This document shows positions 1-40,193 of a stretch of 64,000 bases of DNA, piece after piece. The first letter of the stretch is position 1. Every line of letters begins with the position of its first letter. The notes beneath the pieces were generated by a model that was not told where the DNA came from, did no database searches, and saw nothing but the letters and a program-made list of their open reading frames with translations. This stretch comes from Xestospongia bergquistia (lineage: Eukaryota > Porifera > Demospongiae > Haplosclerida > Petrosiidae): contig OZ014411.1 of the NCBI GenBank assembly GCA_963965975.1, positions 24,969,249 to 25,033,248 of the forward strand, given 5' to 3'. The translations under genes and the position numbers were made by a program.

Positions 1-937
1 ATAAAAAGGCACAACCTACATTATAATCTTGTTTTCAGCTGGGATTATATATAGGTCTGGACATTCTATTTAGTGCCTAACCAATGATTTGATAGTCTCA
101 AATTAAGAGTAATGGCCTGGTTCACCTGCTCTGTCTATATCTACTCCAGTTTTGCCTACTAAAAGCATAATTTGCATATTTTCGCTTACTATTAACTTAT
201 TCTATTTCATGCTTTCCAAACTAATTTTAAGAGTGATAGTAAGCTATTTACAGTAACAATCAATATAGTACATTTATAAGTATTATAATAATTATATATG
301 TAATGTCAAAGATATGTATGAATCAGCATGCCTATAACATACTTAGCTCAAGATATACTCTCATAACAATAATTTCATGTTAACTTAAAAGAATAATCAA
401 GTTTCTTTGCTCACAGGAATGAAAGTTTGTGTGAATGTGGAATTTAAAAGGATATCTTCTGTAATATCATAGCCAATCTTAAAACACATCATGAAGTTAT
501 AATGTCCATAATATGTCATCTACTAATTAGCATCATCATCATCAATAAGTGATAGTACAATTAGACAGCTCAGGTTGATAGTCTATGTAAACAATATAGG
601 AATACTTCATATAGGAAGTATACCTATATTGTTCATAACAGGAAGTAAGAATGTACACAGCATGTACAAGTACATGTAAACAAGATTGCATCATGATCTC
701 ATTATTATTTAAATAATAAATAGTCAACCTGCTATAATTTTCATAACAAATTCTTTATGCAAACCACAGAGAAGGAATACATACTCTTGTACCAGGCAGT
801 TCTCCCTTCATTATTATGTTATTCAAAATTGTATATTTCCTTTCCCAATATGTTCAACTATATCCAAAGCAATTATATGTACATCCTTATATAAAACTAT
901 TTTAATAAAGTATAACTTTGTATTATATATGTCTCAC
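1..937. other. Intron sequence of gene A, nothing else seen
   Basis: This stretch lies downstream of the splice donor of gene A exon 8 (donor at 932-937 on the minus strand). It should be intron 8 of gene A, since the next exon (the DFD exon in genes B and D) is not present. It is plain AT-rich sequence with no splice-bounded coding segment I could recognise. In gene B the equivalent intron is about 2.7 kb, so the missing exons 9-12 of gene A would be expected to the left of the window. Confidence 0.6.
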
Positions 938-3900
938 AATTTTAGGTCGTTTTCTACAGACACAAGCTAATGGATTTGGACACTCGCAATCTGTCAACAC
1001 CAGAATATTAGATGGTTTGATATCTCTGTGAATTATTGGGTTTGGTAAAGTATGGAGATAATGAAGACCTTGAAGGATCTCCCTAGCAATGTACCTAAAA
1101 GAAGAATGTCAGAGCTCTGTAATTAATTAGTACATATCTTGGTTACATTTTATGTAACTGTACAATACACTTGTATACAAATGTAATTATATTGAAATTC
1201 TTCATAACAATCTGTGCTGTATAATAATCAATAAGTATAATAAAATATTGATCTCATTTAATAGTAGCCAAGAGTTATTTGTGATGTATTTTTAGAGATA
1301 TATTATCGTAATAGTTACATATATACATGTACATCAGCCAATTATAACGTTCCTATTAGTGTTAATTCACCTACTCTATAATTCTCAACAGGATTAACTT
1401 TATCCTAGTGGGAATTATATTACATTTGGCAAATTCCAAATATGAATAGCAAAAACAAATTTATAGACAAAGTATAGAATGTCATAACAAAGTGTCTTCT
1501 AATTAGAATGTAGCCACTTTGGACTAAAATTACAGTTCATACTGAATACATACTCCAATATCCATATCTTTTAATAGTCTCGTGTTACCTAACATGATCT
1601 TAAAATATGCATTAGAAATGTAATGCACATCAAAACAACTATTAACTGAATGCAATTTCAATGAACATCCAGGTATGTGCATCAACCTTGAATAAATCAA
1701 TTTGCATTGAAAATAAATTTAAAAGGTAATCTGTGAACAGTGTGAACAAACAAAACAAACTGCACTACAACATACATAAATGAACTAAGACACACACAAA
1801 CTAAGATAAAAACTCCTTCTTATGCTAGGTATACATAAACATAAGGATACCATTGTAAATATTCATGTAGTTAAGGAAGGCATTGCTTAGGTATATAGTA
1901 CATACATAATATGAATATTTACCTAAAGTTGTTTTGTATCTTTCTTAGTAACAGTGGCTCATTCTTATATCTTTCATTTAGAGATCGAAGACAAAATCTC
2001 TCATAAGATCCCACAGTTCTTCCCAAGTCATCTGCATATACAATATAAAAAATTAACACATAATAAATTTAGATAATCACTTGTCATTCGTGGATAATAG
2101 TGATAGATATAACGTCTTCTTGGAAAGGCTTCTATAGGATCTCCCATTAACATTGCAATTAATGGCAAGATATTAGGATGATGTAATTTAGGCATTATTA
2201 AGACTTCTCTCCAACGAAAAGCAGTCCGTTTCACAGCATACACTGTTCCTTCAAAAAAAACCTTTAAAGGAAAACAGTATAGATGACAAAACATCATCAT
2301 GAGTCAATACCTCTAATATAAGACCATTACCACCTTCTCTTATTACTCCAGTAGTCTTCTTGTCAGGTAGTGTATAATCATGTCCAATTACAAACACTTC
2401 TCCATCTCCCTATATTAATATGTAATAATATATACATAGTATAGATGAACAAGTAACTTACATAGAAGCAATATCCTGGTTGATCAAAACCCTCTAATGC
2501 ATAACGTTTGATTTGTTGCTCTGTTATAAATGCTTGACGTCCTTCATGAAGTGGTTTGACAAGTGATGTACCAAATGTACCCAAAACTTTCCCATATTGA
2601 GAAGACATCATACTACATTGAAACACAATGACAGTTCACAATATATACACACTATTGACTTATTGATCCTAATGCATGCTTCTTACAATGTAGTAGCATT
2701 CAGTCTTTAAAGAAACTATAGTTTCAATAATGTAACTCTAATGCATATGCTGTTATCCTCTTTTCACTACAACAAGTAATACAAGACATAAAAATTTGTA
2801 TTTATTACATCCTAGACCTAGGCCTGTAAACATTACAATCTTATAAGTAAACGAGAGACAAATAAAAAGAAATACAGGCAGATAAGCAGCAAAGAAATGT
2901 TATAAAATCCTAACCTTGGAGGTGGAGAACTAACAGGCATAGATTCCATAGTTGTAATATTAGCTACAGCAGTATTAGTTGTCATAACACCAGATTCTGT
3001 TTCTCGATTTGATGGAAGTGGTAACTCTCGTACTACTTGCTCATCCTCTCCCTCTTGAAATGTTTTAAAATTCCGCCAACGTATGTCTTCCTTAATCTCG
3101 TATTTCTCATCTAAATAGTCACATCCAATCTCTCCTGGTTCATTACATTCATCACTATTGGCATATAATGATATGATTATTGGATCTTCTCCTGTGGGTG
3201 GAGTTATTCCAATACGAACATATCGACTAGAATTCAATAAGACAAGTTCAGCAATCTCTACTTGACTACTACTACTAGTATGTGATTGTATAGAGATTGT
3301 CTTGTACTTCTCTTCTAACTCAATGGACCCATTTGGTTGAGATACCTAACAAAATAGGACATAAAGGTACATCGTAATAATATATAATACTGACGTATGT
3401 GATGATATGTAATGTAGCAAGCTTTTTATGAGTACACCTGCTGACTAAGCTTTGAAAATATAGTATTGGTTTACTTGATTAAACACATACATTTGTCACG
3501 CTAGCATATAATTGTTCCGTGTAAGGTGAGTCAATTAGAAATTAACTGTGTGTAGCAAACAATTTGCTACTATACTCACTCATCCACAAACTATTCTAAA
3601 GTAACATGATGTACAGATGGCTTAGTGTCTAGTCTGAACTCAAACAAGGTTAGGAGGCATCTTGTTAGCACACACAAAGATTATTCAACTGGTACAAAGT
3701 AGATTGTTGTAGTATACTAGTATCTTAGGCTATCAACTCGTTTGTGGATATCAAGTTAGTGTTAGGTTAAGAAAGATGAATGATTCAACAAATTAGTGTC
3801 TTGTGATGCTTAGAAACCATGTCTTAACTTATTACTAAGTCATTATTTTAAGATACTATCTTAGCATGAGAGTTTGTGATCAAGAATATCAAGATGTTTT

Positions 3901-6001
3901 TGCTAATACATTTCAATGAACATCAGATCCCATCATAAAGCATAGTTATTACATACCTAACAACACTAATATTACAAGCTGTTAGTTATCATATAATAAC
4001 ACTAATGCTACAAGCTGTTAGTTATTATATAATAACACTAATGCTACAAGTTGTTAATAAGTAACATATGTAAAGCACCTATCAACAAAGAATCTATTAA
4101 TAATATGAACACTTATATTGTATAATAATAATAATGACAATTTACTGCTAAAACATAAGTACAAAATATAATGCGTATAAAGGTAATTAATGATATAAAC
4201 AATATTTCTGTTTATTAGTAACTGAGATCCCTGACATAGCAAATATGTTACATTCATGAGTACATGAATCTAATTAAAGGCACCATATAAGGCTTAATTA
4301 AATGTCAACACAATATTAATAAAGATATTGCAAAACATACTTAAGTAACGCTCACTTTAACCTGTTAAATAATCCACTTGATGTTTGAGACAATGAAATA
4401 TTATAGTCTATAACTGTGATATTTAGGGTAATATGAAATAAATATACAATACATACACGCATAGTTTCCAAACTCTTTTTCTATTTTATTATTAATGTCA
4501 TTAAAAAACAAGCAACACTCACTTTAACCCAGTGCATTGGTACAATAGGAGTTATCAGGACACCTTCATAGAAGTCATATCTCATATTTCGTGAGAAGGA
4601 GAACCAGATATGATCACTTTTACGATATTGACTTTGTACTAGTATAGGACAATACATTTGTAATTGAGGGGCAACTAAGTCTTTGACCATATTATAGAAA
4701 GTAACATTTTCCACTTGTCGTCGTGTTCTATATTGTTCTGTTGTTTGATGACCATATGCTCCAAGAGATAATTCAGATGGATCTGCAGACACAACAGGCA
4801 TTGATGGTCTAGTGACTCTATCTGCTGTTACAATAACTGAAGACTCTGAAGTCACTTCAATGGCTTGACTATCAAAATGTGTGTCATGTGTACCATATGA
4901 TATGTGTTCACTTAATGTAGTAAAAACATAATCTCGGCTTCGTAAACTAATAACTATGCGATTGAGATCACCAAACATTAAGTCATGATCTTCTCTGACA
5001 ACTACCACAGGTATCTTCCTTTTTCTTATGTCAGTACATTTGTCAATACGTAGTTTTAATCTGCTCACAAGCCTCTCCTTTGAACAATACACTTTCCAAG
5101 TAGCATCATCTTGAGCTGATGACACGAGATAGTATGCAACACCATTAATACTGCTCTCAATTTCATCTATGCTAAAGCTAAAAATCTGTGATCTAAAGAG
5201 CTCATGGTGAACTTGTAAACATAAGTTATTATCTTGAGCTTCATTCAAGCATCGCATAATTAATAGTGCTTTCTGGTTACTGATAATTGGATGGCTACCA
5301 TTAAAACTCTGACAGATGTAGCTAATCATATAGAATAGAGCTTCTTTAGCTATTTTAGATAATCCAGCTCCTGCTAATCCAAAATACATTTCCAAAACTC
5401 CCCATTTATTTTGATCCAAGGAGAAGAGCTTACTGTTCACAAACTTCATAACTGTCATTAAAGGTTGATTAATAAGGTAGTAAGCAGCAAAGTATTCCTG
5501 TATAATTGGATGAAGGAACTGGTAGTGATAGGAAGGGTTGACAGAGAAGCCTTCTAATGACTCACTCTTAATCATTCCTAGTGATTTAACATCTGCCATG
5601 CAAGCAAAACTACATTGTAGTAGTTCATTAGACAGCTGTTCAAAAGACTCAGGGTATTCATCAATGTGCAACAGATAGGCACATCGAGATAACATTTTTA
5701 AGTCGTCATTTTCCTGTCTCTTCATGATTTGAAAGAATAAAGACACATTTAAGATAGGTGGCCTGATAGGTGGCCTGGATTCCACTTTGTCCCATTCCCT
5801 GGCTTCCACTTTGTTCCATTCCATTGCTTTGCAAATCTTTCCACAAACAATGGTAGTAATGAATGAAACCTTGTGTTGTATACATTTTGGCTCTGCCTTT
5901 ATTTCGTCCCAGTTGATATTTAAATAAGGATCATTTAGTGGAATGCCAGGTAAAATCTCTCGTACAACCTCTTGTGGTGTGTTGGGAGTCATAGTCATCA
6001 T
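938..6001 (-). CDS. Gene A: NLR-like module/protein kinase fusion, 3' part outside window
   Basis: Exons on the minus strand, in order: 4523-6001 (start ATG at 6001; the exon itself begins at 6005), 2915-3345, 2462-2612, 2311-2409, 2081-2261, 1923-2031, 938-1094. All borders are GT-AG and phases match genes B and D; exons 9-12 lie off the left edge. The first coding exon (493 codons) contains FLHPIIQEYFAAYYL, the kind of motif found in the winged-helix/HD2 end of NACHT NLRs, but no Walker A. Next comes an unrecognised beta-rich-looking module. The kinase part follows, with VYAVKRT (ATP-binding lysine), LHHPNIL and HRDIKPSNIL. A Cys-rich insert (CECPNPLACVC) follows the catalytic loop. Relative to B the first exon has about 18 extra residues made of short in-frame duplications near 5755-5830. 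The donor of exon 2081-2261 is GTGATT, weaker than the GTGAGT in B and D. The protein is probably cytoplasmic: no signal peptide or membrane segment is supported. A signalling or immune-receptor role is inference. Confidence 0.85.
3962..4058. repeat. 36-bp tandem repeat, about 2.7 copies, in gene A intron
   Basis: Units starting at 3962, 3998 and 4034 share the core AACACTAATGCTACAAG followed by TGTTA-type sequence. The period is exactly 36 bases and the copies differ at only a few positions. It lies in the intron between the first two coding exons of gene A and is absent from the matching intron of B as far as I can see. Confidence 0.8.
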
Positions 6002-9258: not shown

Positions 9259-12200
9259 TTAATATTGAAATCCCCTAAGATAATCATGATTTAGTAATTC
9301 ATTAGCAGTAGGTCTTTTATCTGAATCAACAGTGAGACATTTCTCAACAAAATCAATCAATGAAGTTCCAACAAAAGCCCTTCTCAATCGGACAATCTAA
9401 AGTGCAATAAAATCATGAATCAAACATAGCCTTAAAAATTTTGGCACTAAATGTTTGTCACACTCAGTAATGAGGGTTAATAGTTAAAAGGACAATAAAT
9501 TAAATATTTGACAACAGGGTTACGAAAATATGGTCTTAGTCACTATGTTACAAACTGAAATGTATAGGCTAATAAAAGTGCATTTTCTTTATATCCAATG
9601 AAAATTATGGTACAACCAACTGTTTAAGTTTACATAAAATGTATGCTACTATATCCTAGTAGTATATTTCCTATATCCCTCCTTCCATTCATTCAATTAT
9701 CTATTGATCCATCCATCCATTCTATACTCATGGACATACTGGCAATATTTTGTGGATATCAGATTCTACAACACATGGCTCAGATCTTCTATAAGTAGTT
9801 ATTCCATGTTTCTCTAGAATAGCTTGTTTTCGTTGATCTAATGGTTGAGATGTTTTAATGGCTTGTTTGGCTGAGAGCAGTAATGTTCCAACCTGTAGAA
9901 ACATGTTAATATAACATCACAACATGCTTTTTATATAGGTCAGTTGTTTAGCAATAATAAAAGTTGATAAATTTAATGTCTTATTAAAATAGCTTTAAAA
10001 ACCTTCTGACAAAAATATTAACCATAAAACTAAGTTAAGCTCATAACTATTTAAATTAACACAAGTGGTAGCTGAATAATGTAGTTATATCTTTAAAAGA
10101 ATTAAGGTATAGTCAAAATGAGTCCAGGAACAACAAGCCACAACTACATACATTGCAAATGAAGTTATTACTAGGGCACACTCCCTAGTGGTACAAAATG
10201 GCAGACATTAAAAGGGTTCAAACCAGTTACTGAGTGATTTCTCACTTAAATTTACTTATTTACATAATTACGTTTTACATTGTAAGATGTTAGAGGTGAT
10301 GATTTTGATAGACATTTCAGATTTTTGCCAGGAGGTCTGGATTTCTCAATAATAATCATCTCTTTAATTAATTATGAAATTATTATTAAAGGAGAAATGC
10401 AACTTCACAAAAATGCATTGGAAGCATTGAATTGTGACTATGGAAGCCAAAGGCAGACATCCAATTCTACTTCATAATTTCATATTCTACTTCGTAATTT
10501 CGTATTCTAATTTGAATTTTTCCAAAAATATTCCAATTCTTATTTCTATCCTTCAATAGAATAATTAACAAATAAGTCCTATACCCTCACCATAACTGGA
10601 AACATGTCGCTTCACTCCTCTTTAAGAGACAGGTCGCGTTTCACTTAATTGAGCTCAATGAATTGAAGCGAGCATCGCGAGCTGTCTCTTAAAATGGACC
10701 GAAGAGACATATTTCCAGTTATGGTGGGGGTATAGGATTTTAGTTGTTAAATATTCCATCAAAGTATAAAAAATAGAATTGGAATTGGTAAAACTGCAAA
10801 GTAGAATTGGAATACTGTTGGAAAACTTCAAAGTAGAATATGAAATTACGAAATAGAAATGGATGGCCACCTTTGGCTTCCATATGGGACAGTTCTAATC
10901 TGTTGAATTAGTAGGAAAGTACATAGTTCTATTAAAACAAAGCCAACTCCTTGGCAAAGTAATTTAACTACTCATGAAACCATGCCCACTGATGATATTC
11001 CTTACCAACTTGTGAACATAAACAAACCTGCGAGCAAATTAACGTTATGTATAAAGTTAGCTTTATCTTAAGAGAATGAGTAGATGATGAAATTCTTCTG
11101 ACAAAATGTAAAGTTTTATATGCTCCTGACACAATATTTCTGTAATAACATCTCCAAGATAAGTTATTACTCAAAACTATTCAAGCTCAAGTTGTTGATT
11201 AACACAGACAACAGATGACTTATTAATAACACATTGATGATAATCAATAGTATTGGACGTAGGAAACATAATTGCTTACATTTAGAAACATTGAATGAAA
11301 GTCCCCAGAAGGACTTCCAACTAAATAAAAGCAACCAGGTTTTTCTGAGAAGATAATCTTCTAGAGTAATAATTTGCCAATACATTTAGATTTATCACCA
11401 AAAATGTAGGTAGTAGCAAACTTAGTGATAGTAGTGTCATTAGTATATATAATGAATAGAAGAGGCATCAAACACTTCCCCAAGCCACTTCTGAAGTAAT
11501 AGGAAAAACATTGAAATTTTACTATCTACTGAGACAATTTGAAGGAATTGTCCATATTTGAATACCAACAAATATCAAGCAGGTTTCAATGGACACAATA
11601 TGACTATTACACTAACTAGTTTGATAAAGTGAACATTTTTATTTTCAATTTGAATGTCTGTGTCACTCAAACAGACTTATGAAACATATGTGATGGCTCT
11701 ATGACTCCTTTATGTAACATGTTTTCCACTTTTTGTTTTTCTTCCTGACTTTTATAAAATGGAAGATTTTTTTGAGATTAGTTTAGCCACTGGATGGATG
11801 TGAATATCAAATAAACATTGAATAAAGTATTTTTTTCCAAATAAATCACTGTCTAGTAAGCAATAAAATGAGCTAATTTTCTTTAGAGAAGGACTTTCAG
11901 CTATACTTTTCTTGCTCAACAGAGAATTCTTAGTCCTTTGAAATAACTGTGATATTGTATTACTAGTTTGGCTCCTCAAGGTAGACAACACAAATGATCT
12001 GAAAGTGTGGAATCTGGCTGAATTGTGCTGATATTGTCTCCTTTGGGCAAGGGTTGGAAGTTCTCATAGCTATGAATGAATGTGTAATACTTGGGAATCT
12101 GGATTTTCTCTATAATTCTGAGCAAGAGATTGAACCACCAATAACCAACATAGTTCTATGAGGTTCATATATTTATCTTATTTCAGGATGTAGTATAGTT

Positions 12201-15200
12201 GTGGTGTTTAGAATAGTGACTTGAAAGATTGGTGAATAGCTAGGTCCACCCTATAAGGAATGGTTGACCATTGACAGTAGTGACATGTTGGTTAAGTTGA
12301 ATGAATAATGGTTATACTTATACATATTACTAAACCTGCACCCAATGTACTTGATTGGCTTAGTCCTCTAACAATTACTATCCAAACAATAATAGTAGCT
12401 GTAGTGTCAACTAGCTGTATCCCCATAGGCTATGACCAGTGAATGAGCTGACTTTTCCTGGTTTGGAACTACAGCCACATTACACCAAGTTATAAGCAAT
12501 GCTTCCAGTAGACTCTGTCAACACCAACATCACATGATTGACACAGAGATTACTTTCATAATGGTTCAAGATCAGAAAGCTCAAGCACCTGTTTGACAAC
12601 CATCTTTCCCGTAGAGGGGCTACTAAAATTTCTGAGGTGTGTTTGCCCCATTCATTGATATTATGCAGGTGATAAATGCTTTTCATGCTAAACAATTTTA
12701 CCTGAGCTATCTCAACTGTTCATGATAGACTAAGAGTATCATCCAAAATGTCTCCTTACAAATGGATAGGAAAAAAGAATGCCTTCTGCATTTTCCCCTG
12801 TTGTTTGTGTGGAGAAGATATTTCAGCCAACAGATTCAGTTCACTTGCTATTATAGTCTGTCAATTTAAACAGAGCCCAGCATCCAAAGGAAAACATGAA
12901 ATGGCTTGTTCTCTAGCAAGAGATACTAATGTTATGGTTATCTTGATCTGCTATACAAGTCATACAGTTCAAACAATTTCAGCCAAAGAGCAAAGTCAAT
13001 ATTAGCTACAAACGTCTCTAGCAGACCTTAGCTGCCCTGGACAATACCTAGAGCCACATCCACTCCTAACACTACTCGATAATAGATGATGTTTGACAAA
13101 ACAAAGGAACAAGACATGGAATACGACCTGCTTATATAAAGAAGTAATCAGGAATATGTCATAAAGTACAAGAGACAATTGGACTAAGAAATAGACAATA
13201 AGACTGTCTACTAATTATTAGTTTAAATGGAAGTCAACATTGTTTAGTTTACTCACTTGTGATAAATGTTTGGGTCCTTCTTCATTTAGAGTCAACAAAC
13301 ACATCAACAGACCAAAACTACAAAAATACACATATCACAACATCTCCATATTTATGTTAACATTGTTAATTAGTTGTATTAATGATGTCAACATCATTAA
13401 AAATAATAATTGAATAGTTAGATAACTAAGCTCCAGAGGAAATAATTTACTCAATTTACACAAGTGTGTTCTGTTCCAAGAATAATTAAACAAAGGCACA
13501 CATTATTACCACACCCATACATAATGACTGCATAAATATTATATATGTATAATTGTGCATTAGTTGGGAAAAGTTATCATTTAATAAAAATCACTCCAGA
13601 ATGAAAAAAAAAGTTGAATACTGGTTCAAGATTCATCTTACTGAAGATAAAGGCAACAATATTAACATTTTGATGCAGGATTTAAAAGTTAAATTGGCTA
13701 TGGGCTACAATTGTTAGTAGAACATCTGACTATAGCAGGTTAGATTAATAGTTATCTAACTACAGGTAATAGTTACTCAAATACAAATTTTGATTCTCAA
13801 TACAAGAAAGAATACTTAATATATACAATAAAGCATGGCTGAAGTGTCAAGGTGTCAGACACACCCATATGTACATAAATTAATTGTTTGGTGTGTATGC
13901 AAATTTACCTAAAAATATCAGCTTTAGTAGACAATGATGTCATTAAATCAGGATTATTGGATACCATATGTATAAATCCTTCTGGTGACTTAAATCCCAT
14001 TGTACCAACAGGTGATATATGGTATGTTCTGTCAGTTGTAGTATAAATGTCTTTAGATGAACTCTTTGGTGGATCAGGTTGAAGAGATCCATCAGGATTT
14101 AACTCAAGACTAGCATCAAAATCTGACAGCATCTAAAAAAAATTCGCATAGTTTGCTTACTCCACACTCTTATCTTCATACTACACTATATATATTATAT
14201 GAGTGGAATTATTTCAGACAGTGCAAATTATAACTAACTTATTTGGCAACTACATAAATTAATAGTTAGTTCTATTGTTATAGACCAATATCATTTTCTA
14301 CATTGTATTAAAGTTGGAAATTCACATCACCTTATACTGCTGCCTTTTTTCAAGAAAGCAAGTACTCTTATTTAAAGGCATGTAAAAGACAAAAATAGCA
14401 ACACCAAAAATTCATGCACTTTACTATTGTATTCTAAGAAATATCTATTAGTCATAAAAGGATATTGGCAGCAGTGTCGAGTGTTACTATTTTTATCCTT
14501 TATATCCTGGTTCGATTTCTTTATTCTATTAAAAAATTTACTTTAATCCATGATCATATTATAACTGAATTGGTTGATTAAATTATTGTTGTTCCAATCC
14601 ACACCATTACATATATAATAATTATAATATAATTATTATATAATTATAATATAATAATTATAATAATTATAATATAATTAATAATTAATGATTATGATAT
14701 AATTGAAATTGCTGCTCCAACACAAATACATATTACTATTACAAAGTATAACCATATGACACAACTATGAAGGGAAGATGACTTAACAACATGGCCACAA
14801 ATGAGAGTCCTATACAACACATATGGATCATAGTCCAAAACAAGGGAAATAGAAGCCTAAAACATACATAGTGCACATGGATAAAGGTTTTATTAACCCT
14901 GTAGGCTTATAGTTCCCATTGATCAAGGACTCTAACCAATTTAGTGTATAACAACAAATCAATGACAAAACATGTTAAAAGTAACTAAGTGATTCCAGCA
15001 AGTAACTAAGAATAGAAGAATAGTTACTTCATGTGTACTCTAAATGTAGAGTTTCATATTTCATTATTGTCTTTTTATTTAAATAAAAAATCACAATTGG
15101 GTCTTTTCTGTTCTAGTGGCTACGATTCTGCCTTAATTGAAAATGAGGTTTAAAATTGAACCTCACCAAGAGATACAAGAAATTTCAATTAAGTCAGCCA

Positions 15201-18200
15201 TAGTAAAAGGACAATCAGTGATATGTCAGTGACAAACATAAAGTATACTTGGTATAAAGTTCACACCATGCATATATAGCTCAATTGTTCTCTTTAACAA
15301 CTATTAACAGATATACTACAGTTGGTTCATAGGATAATACAAAATGTTACATGTCCTAATACAAGTAAATGTAATTGGAGAAAACATACATGTAGTACAG
15401 ATATTTATATTTTTGTTTCTCCCCAAATATAGGTTCAAACATTCTGCCTAACCTTTGATATAGCAATCTAGAATTATAATGCTAGAATATAGCATCAACC
15501 AGAAGTTGTAGATAATGTTCAGGTTTGTTTCTTTTTGAGTAATAAAGGGAATCACAGACAATTAATACTACTCAATTAATAATTGATTGTTAGCCATTTG
15601 TTAAGTTTCTCTAAGAATAGTTTCATGCTAACTTTAAAAAAAGAAGAGTCAAGTTTCTTTGTTTGCAAGAATGAAAGTTTGCATGTATGCATTATTCAGA
15701 AAAGATACTATCCAATAATATAAAACAAATCATAAAGTCAAAATTTCTATAACATGTCACAGACACTTCACAAATGATACTACTGATTAACATCAATACC
15801 AACAAGTGCTAGGACAAACATCAGCCCAATTGTACTCTGGTTCAGAGTCTATGTAAGCAGCATAGAGTGCAAGAGATGGTTTATTAATTAAGAAATCAAG
15901 CATTAGTCTAGCAAGCTAGCCCCTCATCCTTTTTGATAAACTGATGGGTGGACAAGGATCTATGGAAGCATACTGCCCCATTGGAATGTGTGGAATGTGG
16001 GATAATACCATATGAGTGTCATAGTGGTTATAAATATTGTTATTGTTACTGCCACTTCAGTCAAATTATCCTTTGCTTATGCTTTTTTCTAACTGCATCA
16101 CCATGCTATCCATCTATATAACTTCTTTCAAAGTAAGCCTTATCAAAAGATTTGTATAAAAATTAGCTTCTGCACATATTAGTAAGTTAAGTGTTTTTAA
16201 TTCTCTCTCTAAGCTTATAAAGGTAGCATTTACGAAAGCTTCAATAAGATTACAATTTAATAAAAACTACTGTGCTAAAAACATATCTTCCAAAATGGCT
16301 ACCATAACAATAATATTCCTAACCACTACGACAATTTTGTGGTATTGCCCCACATTATAGGATGACAGTAGGCAAGTTCACTTTTAGACCTTCTTCTAAT
16401 CCAACTTCATAAAAGTATGCAACATAACAAAGTGTCAGCCTGTTCTAACAAGTCATATTATATAATTTCTAAAGCAATTCCTTTAGGCAAAGCCTAGATA
16501 TAAATATTATTATTAAATATTCTCATTATCAATGTACACAACATGTACATGTACATGTACAATCTCATAATATGCAGCATAAAAAGGTGTCATTGTATAT
16601 TGAGATATTTTCAAAGCGATAATTAGGAATTATTCAATTATGTTATTCAAGTAGAACTGATAAGAAAGAAAACATGCAATTAAACTTTGAGATGTATTTT
16701 TAAATAATTTATTAATATCCAAACCAATTTCTAACACTTCAGCCTTAATGTAAAAACACATCCTTGTGCAAAGCCATTCAAAAAATTAATAAGTCTCACA
16801 ATTTTAGGGCGTTTCCTACAAACACAGGCTAATGGATTTGGACACTCGCAATATGTCAACACCAGAATATTAGATGGTTTGATATCTCTGTGAATTATTG
16901 GGTTTGGTAAAGTATGGAGATAATGAAGACCTTGAAGAATCTCCCTAGCAATGTACCTAAAGGTAGGATATGATATTAGTAAGATCTTTGAACATACACA
17001 TATACATAGAAGCATATAAGTTTGTTACATTTTACAGTATAATACTTATTCTACATACACATATATATTAGAAATGAGTATACTATTATAAATAATAAAT
17101 CAATAAAAATTAACCATTTTTTTTGTTATTTACTTTTGGATATGTGTTATGGCAATATTAATGATCCTACCAACAACAAAGCACTTTCAGACTGGTATGT
17201 AATGTTGTTATGTGTGTTAGACTAAAAAACACAAGTTGACACTGAATATCCTTTCAATAAGAAAATGTGATCAATGCCATTTGATTTGTTTGTCTAACAT
17301 GATCTTAAAAACATAATGAATATAGAAATCACGGGACAATGTGGTTTAATTCACATCAAAACACAATGAAATCAATTGCATTGAATATAAATTGAATGGT
17401 CATTCTATGACCAGTGTGAGCACAAATATAGGAAGCTGAATTACACAACACACATGTATGTACACTAACAATCATACTAGCTACTAAGACACACTCAATC
17501 TGAGTTATAATATTCTCATACACCAGAGTTAAAAACATAAGTATAACAGATAAAGGAGGCATTAATTGGGAATAGTACATACATAATATGTATATTTACC
17601 TAAAGTTGTTTTGTATCTTTCTTAGTAACAGTGGCTCATTCTTATATCTTTCATTGAGAGATCGAAGACAAAATCTCTCATAAGATCCCACAGTTCTTCC
17701 TAAATCATCTACATATTTATATAATATTAAAAATTAACACATAATAAATTTAGATACTCACTTGTCATTCGTGGATAATAGTGATAGATATAACGTCTTC
17801 TTGGAAAGGCTTCTATAGGATCTCCCATTAACATTGCAATTAGAGGCAAAATATTAGGATGATGTAATTTAGGCATTATTAAGACTTCCCTCCAACGAAA
17901 GGCAGTCCGTTTCACAGCATACACTGTTCCTTCAAATATAACCTTTAAAGGTAAACAATAAAAGATTACCAATAGCATCATGAGTCTATACCTCTAATAT
18001 AAGACCATTACCACCTTCTCTTATTACTCGAGTAGTCTTCTTGTCAGGTAGTGTATAATCATGTCCAATTACAAACACTTCTCCATCTCCCTATATTAAC
18101 ATGTAATAATATATACATACATATTATAGATGAACAAGTAACTTACATAGAAGCAATATCCTGGTTGATCAAAACCCTCTAATGCATAACGTTTGATTTG

Positions 18201-21200
18201 TTGTTCTGTTATAAATGCTTGACGTCCTTCATGAAGTGGTTTGACAAGTGATGTACCAAATGTACCTAAAACTTTTCCATGTTGAGAAGACACCATACTA
18301 CATTGAAACACAATGGCAGTTGACAATATATAGACACTATTGACCTACTACATGGAATGTTTCTTACAATGTAACATCATTCAGTCTTTATAGGGACTAG
18401 TTTTAAGACATTGTATAAACTACACATATACTATTAACCAGTTTTCACTGAAAAGAGTTATTACAAGGAAAAAATCTGTACTTACTGGCCCCTAACATTA
18501 TAACATTACAAGTAAATAAGAAACAAATAAAAAAACAAGCAGATAAACAACAAAAAAACACTATAAAATCCTAACCTTGGAGGTGGAGAACTAACAGGCA
18601 TAGATTCCATTGTTGTAATATTAGCTAGAGCAGTATTAGTTGTCATAACGCCAGATTCTGTTTCTCGATTTGATGGGAGTGGTAACTCTCGTACTACTTG
18701 CTCATCCTCTCCCTCTTGAAATGTTTTAAAATTTCGCCAACGCACATCTTCTTTATTCTCATATTCCTTATCTAAATAGTCACATCCAATCTCTCCAGCT
18801 TCATTACATTCATCACTATTGGCATATAATGATATGATTACTGGGTCTTCTCCTGTGGGCGGAGTTATTCCAATACGAATATACCGACTAGAATTCAATA
18901 AGACAAGTTCAGCAATCTCTACTTGACTACTACTAGTAGTACGAGATTGCACAGAAATTGTCTTGTACTTCTCTTCCAACTCAATAGATCCATTTGGTTG
19001 AGATACCTAACAAATTAGGTCATAAAAGTACATCATAATAATATAACATATGTGATGATATGTAACATTGCAAGTTTTTACAAGTAAAACCTATGCAGAC
19101 AAGGAATATATTGAAAAAAGCAGTTAAGTCAGAAAGTCATAACTCATATATTGAACAAATGATGTCTTGAGTAATAAAATATAATTATTATTGATATAAT
19201 TGATATATAATATAATAGTATAATAGAAGCTACAAATCTTATCATGATATATGTATATATATATGTGTGTGTGTGTGTGTGTGCACGTGTGACCATAAAG
19301 ATGAAAATGGCACTTAATAGTTGCCAAAATTAGTTAAATTTAAAATTAAATTAGTTTCAAACAAATGATTGTGTAAAAACAGTTGCTACACATCCAGGAA
19401 GTCAATGTAATTTGGTATTCATAAAGGTTAATCATTGAGCTTGCACATACTGAATTTTAATAACTTCCTGTTCAAGATGGCAGCACAGCAATATTTTATA
19501 TGCAAGCTTTCCTTCAAAAGTTTTGCGCATTAGGTACCATTTTCATATTTATAGCCACACACACACACGTACATATAATGTCATTTTCAGAACATTGAGT
19601 CAATAACATAAAACATTGTTATAGTTAATCGACCATGACATATACTTGTATTCTAGAACAGTACACATTCAATTAGTGAATACAATGCAACATAATATGT
19701 TTTAACATAATACTATATTCATACTCACACAAAATGACATACAAAACTGGCACAGAGAATACAGTAGTCCCTCTTTTGAGAGACCACCCTTATATCCAAC
19801 AAAAAGTGGTCTTCTACTAGATGTGGGCGGGATAATGGGTTGGATCAATTCGTGCAACACCACGACAAGATTTGCCAAGATAAATTTTTTTCAAAACAGC
19901 TACCCTCTCTTCTAAAATCAAATTTTTTTTTTCATAGACACCTCTGGTTGGTAGTTCTACTTAGTTCTACTATAGCTACAAGTCACATGATAATACAGCT
20001 GCAATTATGTGCATGCATTGAATTTTACATACAATTTACACTTCTAATGGTCTTAAAAATATACGATGATAGTGGTCTCTGGTCTCACAAAAGAGGTGGC
20101 CTTTGACTAGAGGTGGTTTTGTATTGCAATGCATTGGTACATGGAAATTGTGTTCTCTCAAAAGAAGTGGTCTTTCACAGGAGTGGTCTCTCAAAAGAGG
20201 GACTACTGTACTACAAAGTACATATATATAGAGTTACAAAAACCATGTTCAAGTACCACAAAACATGTAATATAATACATACAATAAAGGTATATATCTA
20301 AGGTTATTGCTAGTCTGGTGTCTGCTACTGAATGCAATGTTGGTATGAGAAAGGAATAAATGAGACTATGAATTATAACACAGTAAACAAAACAGGATGT
20401 TTATCGTTTATTAATGTTCTAATTATACACTTATACTGACTACAGTTATACATATAACTATATTGTTAAGAGCAGATATCAATTGTTAACAATCAACCTG
20501 CACACTATAAGAATATGTATTGTTACCAGAACTCACTTTAACCCAATGCATTGGTACGATAGGAGTTATCAGGACACCTTCATAGAAGTCATATCTCATA
20601 TTTCGTGAAAAGGAAAACCAAATATGATCACTTTTACGATATTGACTTTGTACTAGTATAGGACAATACATTTGTAATTGAGGGGCAACTAAATCCTTCA
20701 CCATATTATAGAAAGTAACATTTTCCACTTGTCGTTGTGTTCTATATTGTTCTGTTGTTTGATGGCCATATGGTACAAGAGATAGTTCAGATGGATCTGC
20801 AGACACAACAGGCATTGATGGTCTAGTCACTCGATCAGCTGTTACAATAACTGAAGACTCTGACGTCACTTCAATGGCTTGACTATCAAAATGTGCGTCA
20901 TGTCTACCATAAGATATGTGTTCACTTAAGGTAGTAAAAACATAATCTCGACTTCGTAAACTAATAACAATGCGATTGAGATCACCAAACATTAAGTCAT
21001 GATCTTCTCTGACAACTAGCACAGGTGTCTTCCTTTTTCTTATGTCAGTACATTTGTCAATACGTAGTTTTAATCTGCTAATTAGCCTTTCTTTTGAACA
21101 ATACACTTTCCAAGTAGCATCATCTTGAGATGATGACACTAGATAGTATGCAACACCATTAATACTGCTCTCAATTTCATCTATGCTAAAGCTAAAAATC

Positions 21201-21961
21201 TGTGATCTAAAGAGCTCATGGTGAACTTGTAAACATAAATTATTATCTTGAGCTTCATTTAAGCATCGCATAATTAATAGTGCTTTCTGGTTACTGACAA
21301 TTGGATGGCTACCATTAAAACTCTGACAGATGTAGCTAAGCATGTAGAATAGAGCTTCTTTAGCTATTTTAGATAATCCAGCTCCTGCTAATCCAAAATA
21401 CATTTCCAAAACTCCCCATTTATTTTGATCCAAGGAGAAGAGCTTACTGTTCACAAACTTCATAACTGTCATTAAAGGTTGGTTAATAAGGTAGTAAGCA
21501 GCAAAGTATTCTTGTATAATTGGATGGATGAACTGGTAGTGATAGGTTGGGTTGACATAGAAGCCTTCAACTGACTCACTCTTAATCATTCCTAGTGATT
21601 TAACATCTGCCATGCAAGCAAAACTACATTGTAGTAGTTCATTAGACAGCTGTTCAAATGACTCAGGGTATTCATCAATGTGCAATAGATAGGCCCACCG
21701 AGATAATGTTTTTAAATCGTCAATTTCCCGCCTCTTCATAATTTGATAGAATAAAGACACATTTAGCCTGACCTCACATTCCATGGCTTCACAAATTTTT
21801 CCACAAACAACAGCAGTAATGAATGAAGACTTGCATTGGGTACATTGGGGTTCTGCTTTGATTTCAATCCAGTTGATATTTATGTCAGGATCATTTACTA
21901 GATCAGGTAAAATTTCTTGTACTTGTTGACGTGGTGTACTGGTACTGAGAGCCATATTCAT
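9259..21961 (-). CDS. Gene B: complete NLR-like module/DFD-kinase fusion, 1042 aa
   Basis: Coding exons in order on the minus strand: 20537-21961, 18576-19006, 18147-18297, 17992-18090, 17762-17942, 17600-17708, 16800-16956, 13909-14132, 13257-13317, 9740-9892, 9259-9396 (stop TAA). All are GT-AG and all phases join without a stop. Residues 1-475 form an N-terminal module with FIHPIIQEYFAAYYL at about 144-158, typical of the winged-helix/HD2 end of NACHT NLRs, but with no P-loop. About 440-670 is an unrecognised module. The kinase runs from about 690 to 1042: REGGNG as a possible glycine loop, VYAVK (Lys about 713), WREVLIM (possible alpha-C Glu), HRDIKPSNIL (about 821), CxC...CxC insert, LSDFDAS (about 854, DFD for DFG), FKSPEG in place of APE, KADIFSFGLL, and an ending near KRPTANELLNH. 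The lysine, HRD Asp and first metal Asp are all kept, so activity is possible. No signal peptide or membrane helix is supported. Introns carry two MITEs and a LINE remnant. The leader exon is 22588-22597. Kinase class is uncertain (TKL/IRAK/RIPK-like by HRDIKPSNIL). Confidence 0.88.
10441..10882. mobile_element. Fold-back MITE, 442 bp, with TA target duplication
   Basis: Ends are TGGAAGCCAAAGG and its exact reverse complement CCTTTGGCTTCCA, flanked on each side by TA (10439-10440 and 10883-10884). Nearly the whole element is an inverted repeat. For example TCCTATACCC near 10577 pairs with GGGTATAGGA near 10730, and TTAAGAGACAG pairs with CTGTCTCTTAA around the centre. The TA duplication points to a Tc1/mariner-type transposase. 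It sits in the intron between the last two kinase-lobe exon groups of gene B (9892 to 13257). Confidence 0.85.
10968..11510 (-). mobile_element. LINE reverse transcriptase remnant in gene B intron
   Basis: Read on the minus strand, decayed frames give MPLLFIIYTND near 11470 (RT block PLLFLIYIND), FNVSKCKQLCF near 11290, then SNNLSWRCYY and AYKTLHFVRR near 11170-11080, in the order seen in the C-terminal half of non-LTR RT proteins. Frames shift and stops intervene, so it is dead. It has the same orientation as gene B and lies in its largest intron. Whether 11510-12700 also belongs to it is unclear. Confidence 0.65.
11511..13256. other. Rest of the large gene B intron
   Basis: Several open frames occur on both strands (for example near 11752-11991, 12480-12695 and 12748-13005) but none has splice-bounded or recognisable protein features. 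Parts may be more of the LINE remnant just downstream. I see nothing else to annotate. Confidence 0.4.
14598..14702. repeat. AT-only low-complexity palindromic tract
   Basis: A run built from ATAATTATAATATAATTA-type words, reading nearly the same on both strands, within the intron between gene B exons 16800-16956 and 13909-14132. It is simple sequence with no further meaning visible. Confidence 0.7.
14703..16799. other. Gene B intron, nothing recognised
   Basis: AT-rich intron between the HRD exon and the DFD exon of gene B. It has a short self-complementary ACATGTACATGTACATGTAC run at about 16540-16560 and a TAGTCTAGCAAGCTAGCCCC patch near 15903 that resembles the repeat at 7840. No coding segment was recognised. 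Confidence 0.4.
19244..19283. repeat. (TA)n(TG)n microsatellite
   Basis: Alternating TATATA followed by TGTGTGTG, ending in GTGCACGTGTG, in the intron between the first and second coding exons of gene B. Confidence 0.85.
19760..20210. mobile_element. pogo/Tigger-like MITE, 451 bp, TA duplication
   Basis: The left end TACAGTAGTCCCTCTTTTGA and the right end TCAAAAGAGGGACTACTGTA are exact reverse complements. The repeats extend inward through GAGACCAC. With TA as the duplicated target, the terminus CAGTAGTCCCTC resembles pogo/Tigger-type Tc1/mariner ends. Inside there are further GTGGTCT/AGACCAC repeats and no transposase. It lies in the intron after the first coding exon of gene B. Confidence 0.85.
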
Positions 21962-22587
21962 CAAATACCTGGATGAAATATATTAAATAATGATAATCCA
22001 TAAAATTGCTTTCTCTATTTCACTTTATTATAACATGTACTTGACATAACTTATAAATCAATCAGAAAAGTCAACTCAAATAAAGTTTTTTTCAATAGAT
22101 TCTATATCTGAATCTTTACAATTTACATAGGAGCATAGAGTCCTATACTATTATCATGTATGGTTTGCACATGTGTTCTAGTAAATTAGCTCGTCATTTG
22201 ACAATATGGAGTAGCAATAATATATAAGGGCAAATATAAGATACTCTAATTTGTTTTGTAGCAGACATACTCAGACATTAGCCTCCCTTTTCTCTCTATG
22301 TCGAAGAAATTGATGCCATATTCTGGATATTTAACAAAAGTGCCTTTTTCTCCCTAAAAGAGCTTTTTAACAACACTCTCACATGCAGTTTGTCTGTACT
22401 GTATTTGCTCCATAATTTAAATGCAAATAAGAGGGCAACAACAAAGGATAATTCATACATTTTGTACATATCCTAAACTCATTGGTCTTAGCAGGTTAGA
22501 TGATCATGACAAAATAAATCCAACATATCATTCTTCTAATAACAAATGTAACACAATAAGAAGCAGAATGGTCGTTTCTATTCTCAC

Positions 22588-22796: not shown

Positions 22797-23299
22797 TTAG
22801 CCAGGCGCTTTCACCTATCAAATATTGAAGATGAAATCTACCTCGAGTCTAAGTCTTAGCCAGGCGCTTTCTCCTATCAAATATTGAAGACAAAATCTAC
22901 ATCGAATATGAACCTTAGCTAAGTGCTTTCTCTCATCAACTATTGAAGACAATCTATCTCGACTCTAAGTCTTAGCCAGGATCTCTCTCCTATAAACTAT
23001 CTAAGACAAAGTCTACCTCACGTCTAAACCTTAGCCAAACACTTTCTCCTATTGACTATTGAAGATGAAGTCTACTTCAAGTCTAAACCTTAGCTGGGCC
23101 CTTCTATTGAAGACAAAATTATCTCAAGTCTAAGCCTTAGCCTAGGTACTTTTTCCTATCACCTGTTGAAGACAAAATCTACATCGAGGTTAAACCTTAG
23201 TTAGGTGCTTTCTATTATCAACTATTGAAGATGAAATTTTCCTCAAGTCTAAGCCCTAGTCAAAGACTTTCTCTCATCAACTATTGAAGACAAAATCAA
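22797..23299. repeat. Minisatellite, ~59-bp unit, about 8.5 diverged copies
   Basis: Each unit follows the plan TTAGCCAGGCGCTTTC, then TCCTATCAA, TATTGAAGAC, AAAATCTAC and CTCGAGTCTAAG. Copies begin near 22797, 22856, 22915 and so on; the sixth is shortened. Divergence between copies is moderate, and the last unit ends in AAAATCAAACATGG. It starts right after the small ORF downstream of the gene B promoter. Confidence 0.85.
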
Positions 23300-25078: not shown

Positions 25079-25776
25079 TTGGCTAGTGATTTACGTATAG
25101 AAGAGCCAGTCCTGCCAAGAAAGCGAAAGAGGCCAAGACGATATGAAAGTGGTACAACAGAAAGTTACTCACCAGAAAGTGTTGAACAGTTCTACAGAAC
25201 AGTATATTTTGAGGCACTTGATCTTGTAAGTGGTACGCTCGTTTTGATCAGCCTGGCTATAAGGTTTATTCTAACCTTGAAGCTCTTCTTGTCAAGTCAT
25301 CCAATGGTCAAAAGTGTGACGAAGAGTTACATTTTGTCAAGGATTTCTATAAAGATGACTTTGACACTGAGCAGTTAAGTATGCAGTTACAAGTGATGTC
25401 TTGCAATCTTCCCCAATTATCGCAAGAGGACGCTCTCCACGATTTCTCTTCAGTGATTGGATTTCTAAGGGAGTTTTCAGACTCACAAAGATCTTTAATA
25501 CCAGAAGTCTGTAGGTTCACTTCGCTGATATTGGTGATGCCAGCTACAAACACAGTTAGTGAAAGATTTTTCAGCTCCTTACGTCGGGTTAAATGCTACT
25601 TAAGAGCGACTATGAGCCAGACAAGACTTAATACTTTAATGGTGCTCCATGTGCACAAAACTCTTACTGATTCTCTGTCATTAATAGACATTGGCAACGA
25701 TTTTGTCAAGGGTTCAAACCATAGAGAATCCATCTTGGAAAATTTTCACTTAATGATAATTAATCAAGTTAATTAA
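25079..25776 (+). pseudogene. hAT-family transposase remnant (ZMYM1/DUF4371-like)
   Basis: The first part reads EPVLPRKRKRPRRYESG and SVEQFYRTVYFEALDL, as in hAT proteins of the ZMYM1-like group. The frame must then shift to continue through SNLEALLVKSS and FVKDFYKDDFD, and the open frame from 25381 carries the C-terminal hAT dimerisation block (MPATNTVSERFFSSLRRVK, then TRLNTLMVLHVHK). The N-terminal BED/DDE parts are missing. A frameshift and truncation make it inactive. Confidence 0.75.
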
Positions 25777-36879: not shown

Positions 36880-38970
36880 CCATGAAGTGGTTTGACAAGT
36901 GATGCACCAAATATACCCTAACATTCCCATGATGAGAAGACACCATACTACATTGAAAAACAATGACACTTTACAATATTTAGACACTATTGACCTATTG
37001 ATACTAATACATACTATTTACAATGTAGTAGCATTCAATCTTTAAAGGAACTATAGTTTAAATACATTATGTAATTTAACATATTTATGCTAGTAATCTG
37101 TTTTCACTACAACAAGTAATACAAGATATAAAAATCTGTATTTATTACATTTAGACCTCTAGCCACTAAACATTACAATCTTACAAGTGAATAAGAGACA
37201 AAAAAAGGAAACACAGTAGATAAACAGCTAACAAATGCAATAAAATCCTTGTTAATGCTTAATTTAAAGTCAAAGTTTGCCTATACAAAATTACTAGTAC
37301 TGTTTTATCAATTTAATTCACGAAATATATAAATTATCTTATAATAAATGTAACAATAAAAGATATGAATTGTAGACTTGCACTACATGAATGTGAAATA
37401 CTAAGTATTCTGTCATTAAAAATTAAACAAGACAATCCAAAGTTATGATTAAAGGCAGAGGCAATTCAGAAGCAACCATGGTAGACATCATATCATCAGA
37501 CTCTAATCAACAATTTAAAGGTAACTATTGAACTATTTGTTCATCAGTAACATCTTCAGATGTCTTTAAATGAATTTGTTTGAAGGTATTGTGTACATTA
37601 GATATTTAAAAGATAAATAGATAGATGATCTCATAAAAACAAAATCCTAACCTTTTGAGTGCAATATGTTCTTATGTTCATATCAAAAGATAGTCTTACC
37701 TAGAAGGTAGCACAGTTGATTCAACTGATGAAATTTTAGCTGTGGCAGTATTAGTTGTCATAACACCAGATTCTGTTTCTCGATTTGATGGGAGTGGTAA
37801 CTTTTGTACCACTTGCTCATCAATACCAACTTCAAATATTTTAAAATTTCGCCAATGTACATATTCCTTAATTTCATATTTCTCATCTAAGTAGTCACAT
37901 CCAATCTCTCCTGGTTCATTACATTCATCACTATTCGGATATAATGATATGATTACTGGGTCTTCTCCTGTGGGTGGAGTTATTCCAATACAAATATATC
38001 AACTAGAATTCAACAAGACAAGCTCAGCAATCTCTACTGGACTACTACTACCACTACTAGTATGTGATTGTATAGAGATTGTCTTGTACTTCTCTTCTAG
38101 CTAAATGGACCCATATGGTTGAAATACCTAATAAAGTAAAGATGTTATAATGTCTTTTTTAACATTAATATGTATGACTGAAATAAAAGAGTAGCATTGC
38201 AAAAGATATATTATTAACCAAAGCAAGGCATAAGTGAGATAATGAAATTTAAGCAAAAGAATTAAAATATGCCTTAATTACTCTCCTGTTTATAGACACA
38301 TGATATTATCAATGTATAGATTGTCTTCCTATCTGTTAAATAATCCATTTGATTTTAGGACAATTAATTATCACAGTCTATAACCCAGACATTGATAATA
38401 ATATAAAATTAATTTTACAATGAATCCACATGTAGTTTCTAAATTCTTTTCCTATATATTTTATTATTAATGTCATTACAAAACAAACAACACTTACTTT
38501 AACCCAGTGCATTGGTATAATAGGAGTCATCAAGACACCTTCATAGAAGTCATATCTCATTTTTCGTGAGAAGGAGAACCAGATATGATCACTTTTATGA
38601 TATTGGGTTTGTACTAGTATAGGACAATACATTTGTAGTTGAGGGGCAATAAAATCTTTGACCATATTTAGAATGTTACATTTTCCACTTCTCGTTATGT
38701 TCTATACTGTTCTGTTGTTTGATAACCATATGGTACAAGAGATAATTCAGATAGATCTGCAGACACAATAGGAATTGATGGTCTAGTCACTCAATCAGTT
38801 GTTACAATGACTGAAGACTCTGAGGTCACTTCATGAACTTGACTATCAAAATGTGTGTCATTCCTACCATAAGATATGTGCTCACTTAATGTAGTAAAAA
38901 CATAATCTCTGCTTTGTAAACTAATAACTATATGATTGAGATCACCAAATGTTAAGTCATGATCATCATC
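36880..38970 (-). pseudogene. Copy C: broken paralog of genes A/B/D (body)
   Basis: In minus-strand order: 38498-38970 matches the end of the first coding exon (DHDLTFGDLN to MHWVK) but has a lost base near 38668 and nonsense changes. 37700-38127 matches the second coding exon with the same 428-nt length as gene D and carries two stops (after GSI near 38102, and at the Arg of SSRYI near 38000). 36880-36958 matches part of the third coding exon with small losses. The kinase exons are absent. The blocks differ in origin: 36880-37248 and 38330-38970 resemble gene A including intron sequence, while 37670-38127 resembles gene D including its distinct donor side. It is clearly non-functional. Confidence 0.85.
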
Positions 38971-39240
38971 TTGTTTCATGTTGCGGTTGTGATAATTGTT
39001 GTTGATTTTTATTATAACCAATTAAGCAATGTGTGTTCTCATGCTATACAAAACAATTTATATTGTTGCTCTGGAACCTTTGTCAGGTCTATTTAATTAA
39101 ATGAAAATACTTACATGTATATTCCTAATCTTTTAAATTAAAAAAACAATCCCAAAATATTATGACAGTCCTACCTGTTGATGTAGTAACTCCGCCAAAC
39201 CACAAGAAATTCGGATATTTATTCTGTAAGGCTAACTTTA

Positions 39241-40193
39241 GCAGATTTCCTGGTGAGTATAGAAACATTCTATGGTGGCCAAGAACGTTCAAATATGAAA
39301 ATTGATTTTCATACCCAAAAATAAAATATTGTGAACAACTTTAGAAGCTTGTCATGTACTGCGACAAGAATTCGTTTACAACATTAGTAAAACCATGAAG
39401 AATAGATATCATATGATAATAATTAGTTTAGGGTGTACAAAGTATACCAATCAGCCTTTGTGGTTGACCTTCTTTTGTATTTACACTTCAGAAAACTGTA
39501 GTACAGAAAATTAAGAATTCAACAAACTGTAAATAAATTTGTTGTTGTTAAAGCTTTAAAGTCCCAATTCATTTAGACAGAAAAAGACAGTTTTGTTGAA
39601 TAGGCAAGATATTTGAGGGTGGCATCAATTTTATCAACAGAGAGGAACAAGAGTCCGCTATCTAAGGGTAGCTGCTGCTGCTTGTTTGTCCTTGGATATT
39701 ATTGCCAATTCCTCCTTTGTGACATTATGAGATTGAAAAAAGGTGGAGAGTGTAAGTTGTTAGAAGAGGTGCAGTGTGCAGTAGTCCTGCTGATAGTAAT
39801 TTTGCAAGTCAATCCTTCAAATATGTAAAAGGCTGGTTTGTGAGACTAACATGATAGAATGGCATTCTATATCTCTACTACTCTTTCTTGATATATACAA
39901 TATAAGGCATTGAATCTGTTTCAAGTAAATTGTACCTTGTTATTTGGGTTTGACTTTTCAGAGTGATTTATAAGTTATGTCATATACATTTATAATAAAT
40001 TGAAGTAAAGATCTAGAGAAAGCAATTTTTGTGATTGTCATTATTCAATTTATTTTATACAGGTGTCTGATGACTACAACTCTCAGTATGCCACATCAAC
40101 AGGTATAAGAAATTTTACCTGATCTTCCACTAAATGACCCTTATTTAGTTATCAACTGGAACAAAATCAAAGCAGAACCAAAGTGTATCAGTT
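39241..40193 (+). pseudogene. Copy C 5' end, inverted onto the plus strand
   Basis: GCAGATTTCCTG followed by GTGAGTATAGAAA at 39241-39265 matches the leader exon and donor of gene A, with the ATG lost. After an intron, TTTTATACAG at 40062 precedes an exon homologous to the first coding exon of A/B: MTTTLSMPHQQV, a stop, EILPDLPLNDPYLVINW, then KAEPKCI, where homology ends near 40193. Orientation is opposite to all the other family members. Together with the minus-strand body it accounts for both ends of one first coding exon, with about 285 codons missing between. Confidence 0.8.

Follow-up and report, generated by a model that had tools for sequence, protein, structure and literature searches.

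A 64,000-nucleotide stretch of the genome of the sponge Xestospongia bergquistia, here called the window (contig OZ014411.1, below C1, positions 24969249–25033248; the genome has 146 Mb in 21 contigs), contains members of a gene family in which parts of an NLR (nucleotide-binding, leucine-rich-repeat) protein appear to be joined to a protein kinase. One member, gene B, lies on the minus strand from window position 21961 to 9259 and has 11 exons with 3129 nt, encoding 1042 amino acids and a stop codon. The frame is open throughout, and with the splice sites read from the sequence all 10 introns are of the GT–AG type. An earlier note on this DNA had proposed splice-phase-consistent exon chains of 1042 residues for gene B and 1044 residues for its paralogue gene D, and both lengths were reproduced here. 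The exon chain of gene B stood as proposed, while its start moved from 21968 to 21961, the first ATG of the gene model. Gene B has the following features:

20537–21961, minus strand: exon 1 (475 codons), with an NLR-like end of HD1, winged-helix domain (WHD) and HD2, an alpha/beta stretch of unmatched type and the start of the middle region
21092–21856, minus strand: NLR-homologous region, residues 36–290, without a nucleotide-binding domain (limits approximate; scored alignment at residues 49–243)
21488–21535, minus strand: HD2 motif QFIHPIIQEYFAAYYL, residues 143–158
20537–20821, minus strand: first part of the middle region, residues 381–475
18576–19006, minus strand: exon 2, the remaining middle region and a less conserved linker
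18147–18297, minus strand: exon 3, a pre-kinase segment, which the paralogue on contig C11 has in one open frame with exon 2
17992–18090, minus strand: exon 4, where the kinase N-lobe begins, including the glycine-rich loop REGGNGLILE (by eye)
17762–17942, minus strand: exon 5, part of the kinase N-lobe that carries the VYAVK lysine and the helix C REV glutamate (glutamate by eye)
17600–17708, minus strand: exon 6, kinase
16800–16956, minus strand: exon 7, catalytic loop HRDIKPSN and a C-x-C-x6-C-x-C insert
13909–14132, minus strand: exon 8, DFD (DFG-equivalent), activation loop, SPE (APE-equivalent) and the start of helix F
13257–13317, minus strand: exon 9, kinase C-lobe
9740–9892, minus strand: exon 10, kinase C-lobe
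9259–9396, minus strand: exon 11, end of the kinase and stop codon

The 11-exon chain of gene B could be rebuilt in seven genes on three contigs, with the same order, strand and phase and without an internal stop in any of the seven. These are genes B, A and D in the window, genes F and G at about 23.94–23.96 Mb on the same contig, and one gene each on contigs C9 and C11; each encodes a protein of about 1000–1060 residues. The two open paralogues of gene B in the window are:

45839–53460, minus strand: gene D, 1044 aa, exons 53460–52054, 50215–49788, 48490–48313, 48251–48150, 48104–47924, 47873–47765, 47622–47466, 46937–46714, 46659–46599, 46433–46281 and 45973–45839
1–6001, minus strand: gene A, 1060 aa, starting at 6001 and running past the left window edge, with exons 1–7 in the window (6001–4523, 3345–2915, 2612–2462, 2409–2311, 2261–2081, 2031–1923 and 1094–938) and exons 8–11 to the left of it; two copies of its exon 11 lie about 1.2 kb apart, left of the window

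Because order, strand and phase are shared even by the diverged copies on C9 and C11, which are 29% and 26% identical to gene B over residues 1–345, the exon chain is not a product of chance. The first intron is only 46 nt long in the C9 copy and 45 nt in the C11 copy, and intron 2 is absent from the C11 copy, where the middle region continues in one open frame into the pre-kinase segment with which the kinase exons start. The splice sites of the six other copies were chosen to match the phases of gene B, so that their GT–AG agreement is partly a matter of construction, and exon 10 of the C9 copy (no match at E < 0.02) and some exon ends in the C9 and C11 copies and in gene D were placed by eye. 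The exon chain, the phases, the short introns and the absent intron together support the view that the NLR-type region and the kinase belong to one gene. A genome search with the N-terminus of the C9 copy as a single sequence gave seven matches, all within the family. Broken kinase-side fragments without N-terminal exons occur at 9.21 Mb on C1 and at 7.37 Mb on C9; we considered whether they could be kinases with other N-terminal partners and rejected this, as they are broken fragments of the family. The C9 fragment is near the contig end opposite to the open C9 copy.

To what extent the N-terminal region resembles NLRs was assessed with a family profile from the exon-1 regions of all seven genes (hhalign's own filter kept six of the seven rows) and a profile of the sponge's own NLRs, built from eight loci taken from 95 NACHT matches, one of which was short and was dropped. 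The two profiles aligned co-linearly over 179 columns with a probability of 94.8 and a score of 70.6. The highest-scoring of 50 column shuffles reached 21.9, the reversed alignment 23.2 and the kinase half 18.0. The alignment places QEYFAA of the family on QEYLAA of the own-genome NLRs and spans the end of HD1, the winged helix and the start of HD2. Matched singly against each of the seven own-genome NLRs, the family profile scored 48.2–68.5, and the NLR profile was matched by genes B, A, F and G with a score of 66.8 and by the C9 and C11 copies with 44.2. The pieces of the N-terminal region that score by themselves are columns 60–260 (65.4) and 130–345 (57.7); what is supported is therefore a winged helix followed by the beginning of HD2. 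When the family profile was searched against all PDB sequences, the sole match at E ≤ 10 was NLRP6, weak (E 2.4) and in register, and the Pfam family NLRC4_HD2 was found below threshold in four of six members (best E 0.0066). On these profile comparisons, the N-terminus is NLR-derived and homologous to the HD1-end/winged-helix/HD2-start portion of NLRs. The NLR-type region proposed in the earlier note is thus upheld by the 70.6 versus 21.9 of the best shuffle and by the HD2 spacing given below; it was described as ending at QFIHPIIQEYFAAYYL, and since this motif occupies residues 143–158 of a first exon of 475 codons, the region extends past it.

One might ask whether the N-terminus is a helical domain unrelated to NLRs, with a motif that arose by convergence. 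No Pfam family passes its own cut-off in this region, and no NLR was among the 50 matches listed by Foldseek for a low-confidence structural model, as convergence would have it. The profile score, however, is more than three times the best of the 50 shuffles, the alignment stays co-linear over its 179 columns and the one PDB sequence matched at E ≤ 10 belongs to an NLR and aligns in register, which leaves convergence very improbable. Most of the 50 Foldseek matches listed were RidA-like folds with high root-mean-square deviation, and this assignment was not accepted. The alpha/beta pattern that follows HD2 in the same low-confidence model had no significant Foldseek fold match. Three profiles drew on subsets of the family with near-duplicates dropped (A2 on six of the seven genes, A3 on four and A4 on five), and neither the full B protein nor the members of A2 and A4 gave a Pfam leucine-rich repeat (LRR) match at E ≤ 1.

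The position of the HD2 match bears on what is missing from the family. Of 38 weak NLRC4_HD2 matches genome-wide, 35 begin 415–460 nt (138–153 codons) after a NACHT match on the same strand. In protein B the NLRC4_HD2 match begins at residue 146, and the F residue of the motif is residue 144 (137–162 across the seven proteins, with gene F counted from the exon-1 acceptor). With this NACHT-to-HD2 spacing, the family proteins begin about where NACHT would end. The genome search for NACHT, in which the best 103 of 156 candidates were scored, yielded 95 matches, none of them within 460 kb of any copy; the five C1 copies have their nearest NACHT match on the same contig at a distance of 467–598 kb and the C11 copy at 6.1 Mb, and contig C9 has none. 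The three minus-strand frames of the approximately 3.1–3.3 kb upstream of each of the seven copies contain no NACHT or death-fold match. The Walker A pattern G-x4-GK[ST] occurs in none of the seven proteins, in agreement with the earlier note, which had seen no Walker motif, and no death-fold Pfam domain (CARD, DEATH or PYD) was matched in protein B. Lacking a nucleotide-binding domain, the NLR part cannot work as an ATP switch. Judged by its predicted domains, the family protein would not count as a STAND (signal transduction ATPase with numerous domains) P-loop NTPase, no P-loop NTPase having been found. Nor would it be an NLR by definition, with neither NACHT nor LRR found, yet it appears to carry an NLR module on a kinase.

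A NACHT exon could still lie upstream, in which case the full protein would be an NLR with a C-terminal kinase. An acceptor-like AG just ahead of the exon 1 ATG, seen by eye, makes an upstream exon, coding or non-coding, likely, and gene F lacks an exon 1 start codon. In the C9 copy, however, the frame from the nearest acceptor to the ATG is interrupted by a TGA, though other AGs come after the TGA, and the 3.25-kb spacer between genes A and B has no minus-strand frame longer than 74 aa. Together with the lack of NACHT within 460 kb and in the upstream stretches of all seven copies, this makes a hidden NACHT exon a highly unlikely explanation. Comparison among the copies for conserved upstream coding exons revealed, beyond exon 1, only short matches in the close pairs A/B and F/G. 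A Pfam scan of the upstream stretches at E ≤ 0.1 gave nothing for five of the seven copies, one weak DUF3311 match for gene D, and a weak Halogen_Hydrol match and one LRR_6 unit for gene F. The LRR_6-like unit is on the minus strand about 3.0–3.1 kb upstream of gene F (E 0.00069; 19.9 bits, below the 23.4 cut-off).

Between the NLR part and the kinase, the earlier note had placed about 250 residues that matched nothing. With the revised boundaries the distance grows to about 390 residues (about 290–680), of which approximately residues 381–610 form a conserved core with a mean column identity of 70% in five of the seven members. The lack of matches itself was confirmed, as Pfam and PDB sequence searches with the middle region returned nothing convincing (best Pfam match MRP-S28 at E 0.058, best PDB match at E 0.94). 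A link to FIIND/ZU5-UPA was also considered and found no support. In the genome, the middle region gave 19 matches at E ≤ 1, only to the family and its broken copies. We regard it as probably family-specific, unmatched sequence, short of an established new fold.

The C-terminal domain of protein B matches Pkinase with E 1.2e-21. The lysine, HRD, the DFG aspartate (as DFD) and SPE are kept in all seven proteins, the helix-C glutamate is visible by eye in the family alignment, and Ser, Thr and Tyr are abundant in the activation loop. From these residues, the domain is probably an active HRD-type kinase. All seven also share an unusual insert, C-x-C-x6-C-x-C, that separates the catalytic loop from DFD (in exon 7 of gene B, window 16800–16956) and is a possible metal or redox site. 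It is also conceivable that the kinase is inactive or a bait, and that the NLR part interferes with canonical NLRs in the manner of plant modulator NLRs and integrated decoys. The change from DFG to DFD and a glycine loop that looks weakened by eye are in keeping with this scenario, and plant NRG1C is an example of a truncated NLR that antagonises its full-length relatives, according to the accessible text of PMC9851556. On the other hand, the lysine, HRD and metal-binding aspartate are retained in seven of seven proteins, as by eye is the helix-C glutamate, and nonsynonymous divergence (dN) is lowest in the kinase in seven of the eight pairs computed; we consider a modulator or decoy improbable. 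The search for related kinases in the genome gave, outside the family and its fragments, a best match of 26.4 bits over 34 residues (best 99 of 232 candidates scored). The best PDB sequences were p38 MAP kinases, matched through the catalytic loop and the end of the C-lobe, which was too weak for assignment to a kinase group.

Rates of nonsynonymous to synonymous substitution (dN/dS) were obtained for eight of the 21 gene pairs. The ratio was below 1 in every region of these pairs apart from three values for which dS was saturated, two of them from N-terminal comparisons and one from the kinase; a further three values had dS near 2. The ranges were 0.20–0.31 in the N-terminus and 0.12–0.34 in the kinase (unsaturated pairs for both), 0.13–0.89 in the linker and 0.14–0.60 in the middle region. 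These ratios show purifying selection on the family. Gene D is a mosaic with respect to gene B, with dS of 2.04 in the N-terminus, 0.25 in the middle region and 0.49 in the kinase, a pattern that gene conversion over its 3' part or exchange of its N-terminus could have produced.

The constraint on the N-terminus could also mean that the NLR remnant serves for scaffolding or stability, with its fold retained and no immune or NLR-related role, an unrelated signalling kinase having captured NLR exons. The family is small (seven open genes found), its N-terminal dN/dS of 0.20–0.31 does not suggest diversification, and no copy has a NACHT match within 460 kb, all of which would suit a scaffold. The winged helix and HD2 are still recognisable in the diverged copies, however, and the genome is rich in NACHT matches (95) and Death matches (at least 150). 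We see this as a possible explanation, though a rather doubtful one.

These results lead us to propose, with a probability of about 0.5, that the switch-less NLR module is a docking or inhibitory part that controls a probably active C-terminal kinase, which would signal without a death-fold adaptor. In NLRs, the nucleotide-binding domain is packed against by the winged helix and HD2. In this family, the end of HD1, the winged helix and HD2 would most likely have a docking and inhibitory role instead of serving an ATP switch. It is possible that the winged helix and HD2 keep the kinase off until a partner is bound, or alternatively that they bring the kinase to an NLR assembly that bears nucleotide. 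The kinase, presumably cytosolic, would then autophosphorylate its Ser/Thr/Tyr-rich activation loop and signal without a death-fold adaptor. The simplest arrangement would be that the module acts on the kinase in cis, perhaps through association with canonical NLRs.

Several observations weigh against this proposal. Translation of the NLR parts and the kinase from a single mRNA is a prediction from the genomic sequence. Exon 1 of gene F lacks an ATG near its beginning, and an upstream start may be used there or the gene may be damaged. Homology is the only tie of the family to immunity. Gene D by itself matches the NLR profile weakly (34.7), and the first 130 columns (16.6), columns 250–400 (20.0) and later pieces (15.8) do not score by themselves. 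Structure prediction from the three window sequences was poor, with AlphaFold giving a mean predicted local distance difference test (pLDDT) value of 39.9 for exon 1 and of 52.9, still low confidence, for a shorter exon-1 segment, in which ten-residue block means reached 70 or more only at model residues 181–240 and 251–270. For this shorter model, none of 578 Foldseek matches had E ≤ 0.001, and the 50 listed included no NLR. In the kinase, DFG is replaced by DFD and the glycine loop is one glycine short, so that its activity is not certain.

A wider form of the proposal sees the family as a class of animal immune proteins, in which a switch-less NLR with its own kinase slots its WHD and HD2 into canonical NLR assemblies, and activation leads to phosphorylation while death-fold adaptors are bypassed. 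We put this forward as speculation that is unlikely in its entirety. The earlier note's reading of a receptor with a short-circuited pathway likewise goes further than the sequence does. The genome has at least 150 Death matches (150 of 150 scored, out of 983 candidates) and 13 CARD matches, so the usual adaptor routes probably coexist with the family; the Death, CARD and NACHT matches also agree with an animal genome. At about 8.8–9.15 Mb on contig C2, NACHT matches form a dense cluster with Death matches interspersed, some about 2 kb apart and on the same strand, which suggests DEATH–NACHT–LRR genes with the death domain on an exon of its own.

Other proteins share parts of this architecture. 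RIPK2 is a separate kinase downstream of NOD1 and NOD2 that is joined to them through CARD; the likeness is a kinase as the output of NLR signalling, and the difference is that here the NLR-like part and the kinase share one chain. LRRK2 and other Roco kinases do combine a multidomain regulator and a kinase in one chain, with a Roc-COR GTPase in place of the WHD/HD2 module found here. Plant NLRs carry an NB-ARC nucleotide-binding domain, and barley Rpg5 is an NLR–kinase fusion. Such fusions are common in plants, with 161 proteins in 19 species in the available text of PMC4759884, and they likewise have both NLR parts and a protein kinase within a single polypeptide. Unlike them, the sponge family has no nucleotide-binding domain that we could find, and its NLR part resembles NACHT-type NLRs. 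The domains listed for fungal NLRs include a protein kinase as well, again uniting a STAND-type protein with a kinase; the fungal kinase seems, from the portion of PMC4986451 at hand, to be N-terminal to the nucleotide-binding domain, whereas here it is C-terminal and no such domain was found. Truncated plant NLRs can serve as modulators (PMC9851556, in part). With animal NLRs, which are Death/CARD–NACHT–LRR proteins in this genome and, as far as the accessible text goes, in the sponge Dysidea avara (PMC12909245), the family shares the order HD1-end/winged-helix/HD2-start, the motifs and the HD2 spacing; it differs in having no detected NACHT, Walker A, Pfam LRR or death-fold domain and in the kinase that follows.

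Sponge and sea-anemone surveys define NLRs as NACHT plus LRR (PMC12909245, PMC6208332, PMC5094078, accessible parts), a definition by which a protein of this family would be missed. The available text of five surveys of sponges, ctenophores and sea anemones (PMC12909245, PMC8242945, PMC6208332, PMC11797021, PMC5094078) does not mention a NACHT–kinase or NLR–kinase fusion; as a sea-anemone novelty it includes TIR, death and kinase domains joined, with Roc/COR and SH3. In the open-access literature, taken apart from subscription papers and supplements and as far as its text was available, we found no report of an animal NLR–kinase fusion. The fusion family appears to be real and conserved, and as NLR–kinase fusions are already known, its switch-less form would be a new variation. 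If the kinase is indeed under the control of the NLR module, then WHD and HD2 can regulate without ATP, and NLR parts have been joined to kinases in animals as well as in plants.

The window also contains a damaged member of the family:

36881–40188, strand not assigned: broken family copy with pieces of exon 1 and exon 2, frame breaks and one piece inverted

This copy adjoins a GC-rich stretch with a retroelement-like frame; within the GC-rich stretch, at 40–44 kb, a reverse-transcriptase-like frame was recognised by eye at 41072–41515. An open frame at 25222–25776 looks, again by eye, like the C-terminal end of a hAT transposase. Intron 9 of gene B contains a near-palindrome of about 446 bp (window 10439–10884), possibly a small mobile element, and a 59-bp tandem array of 8.7 copies is located upstream of gene B at 22797–23297.

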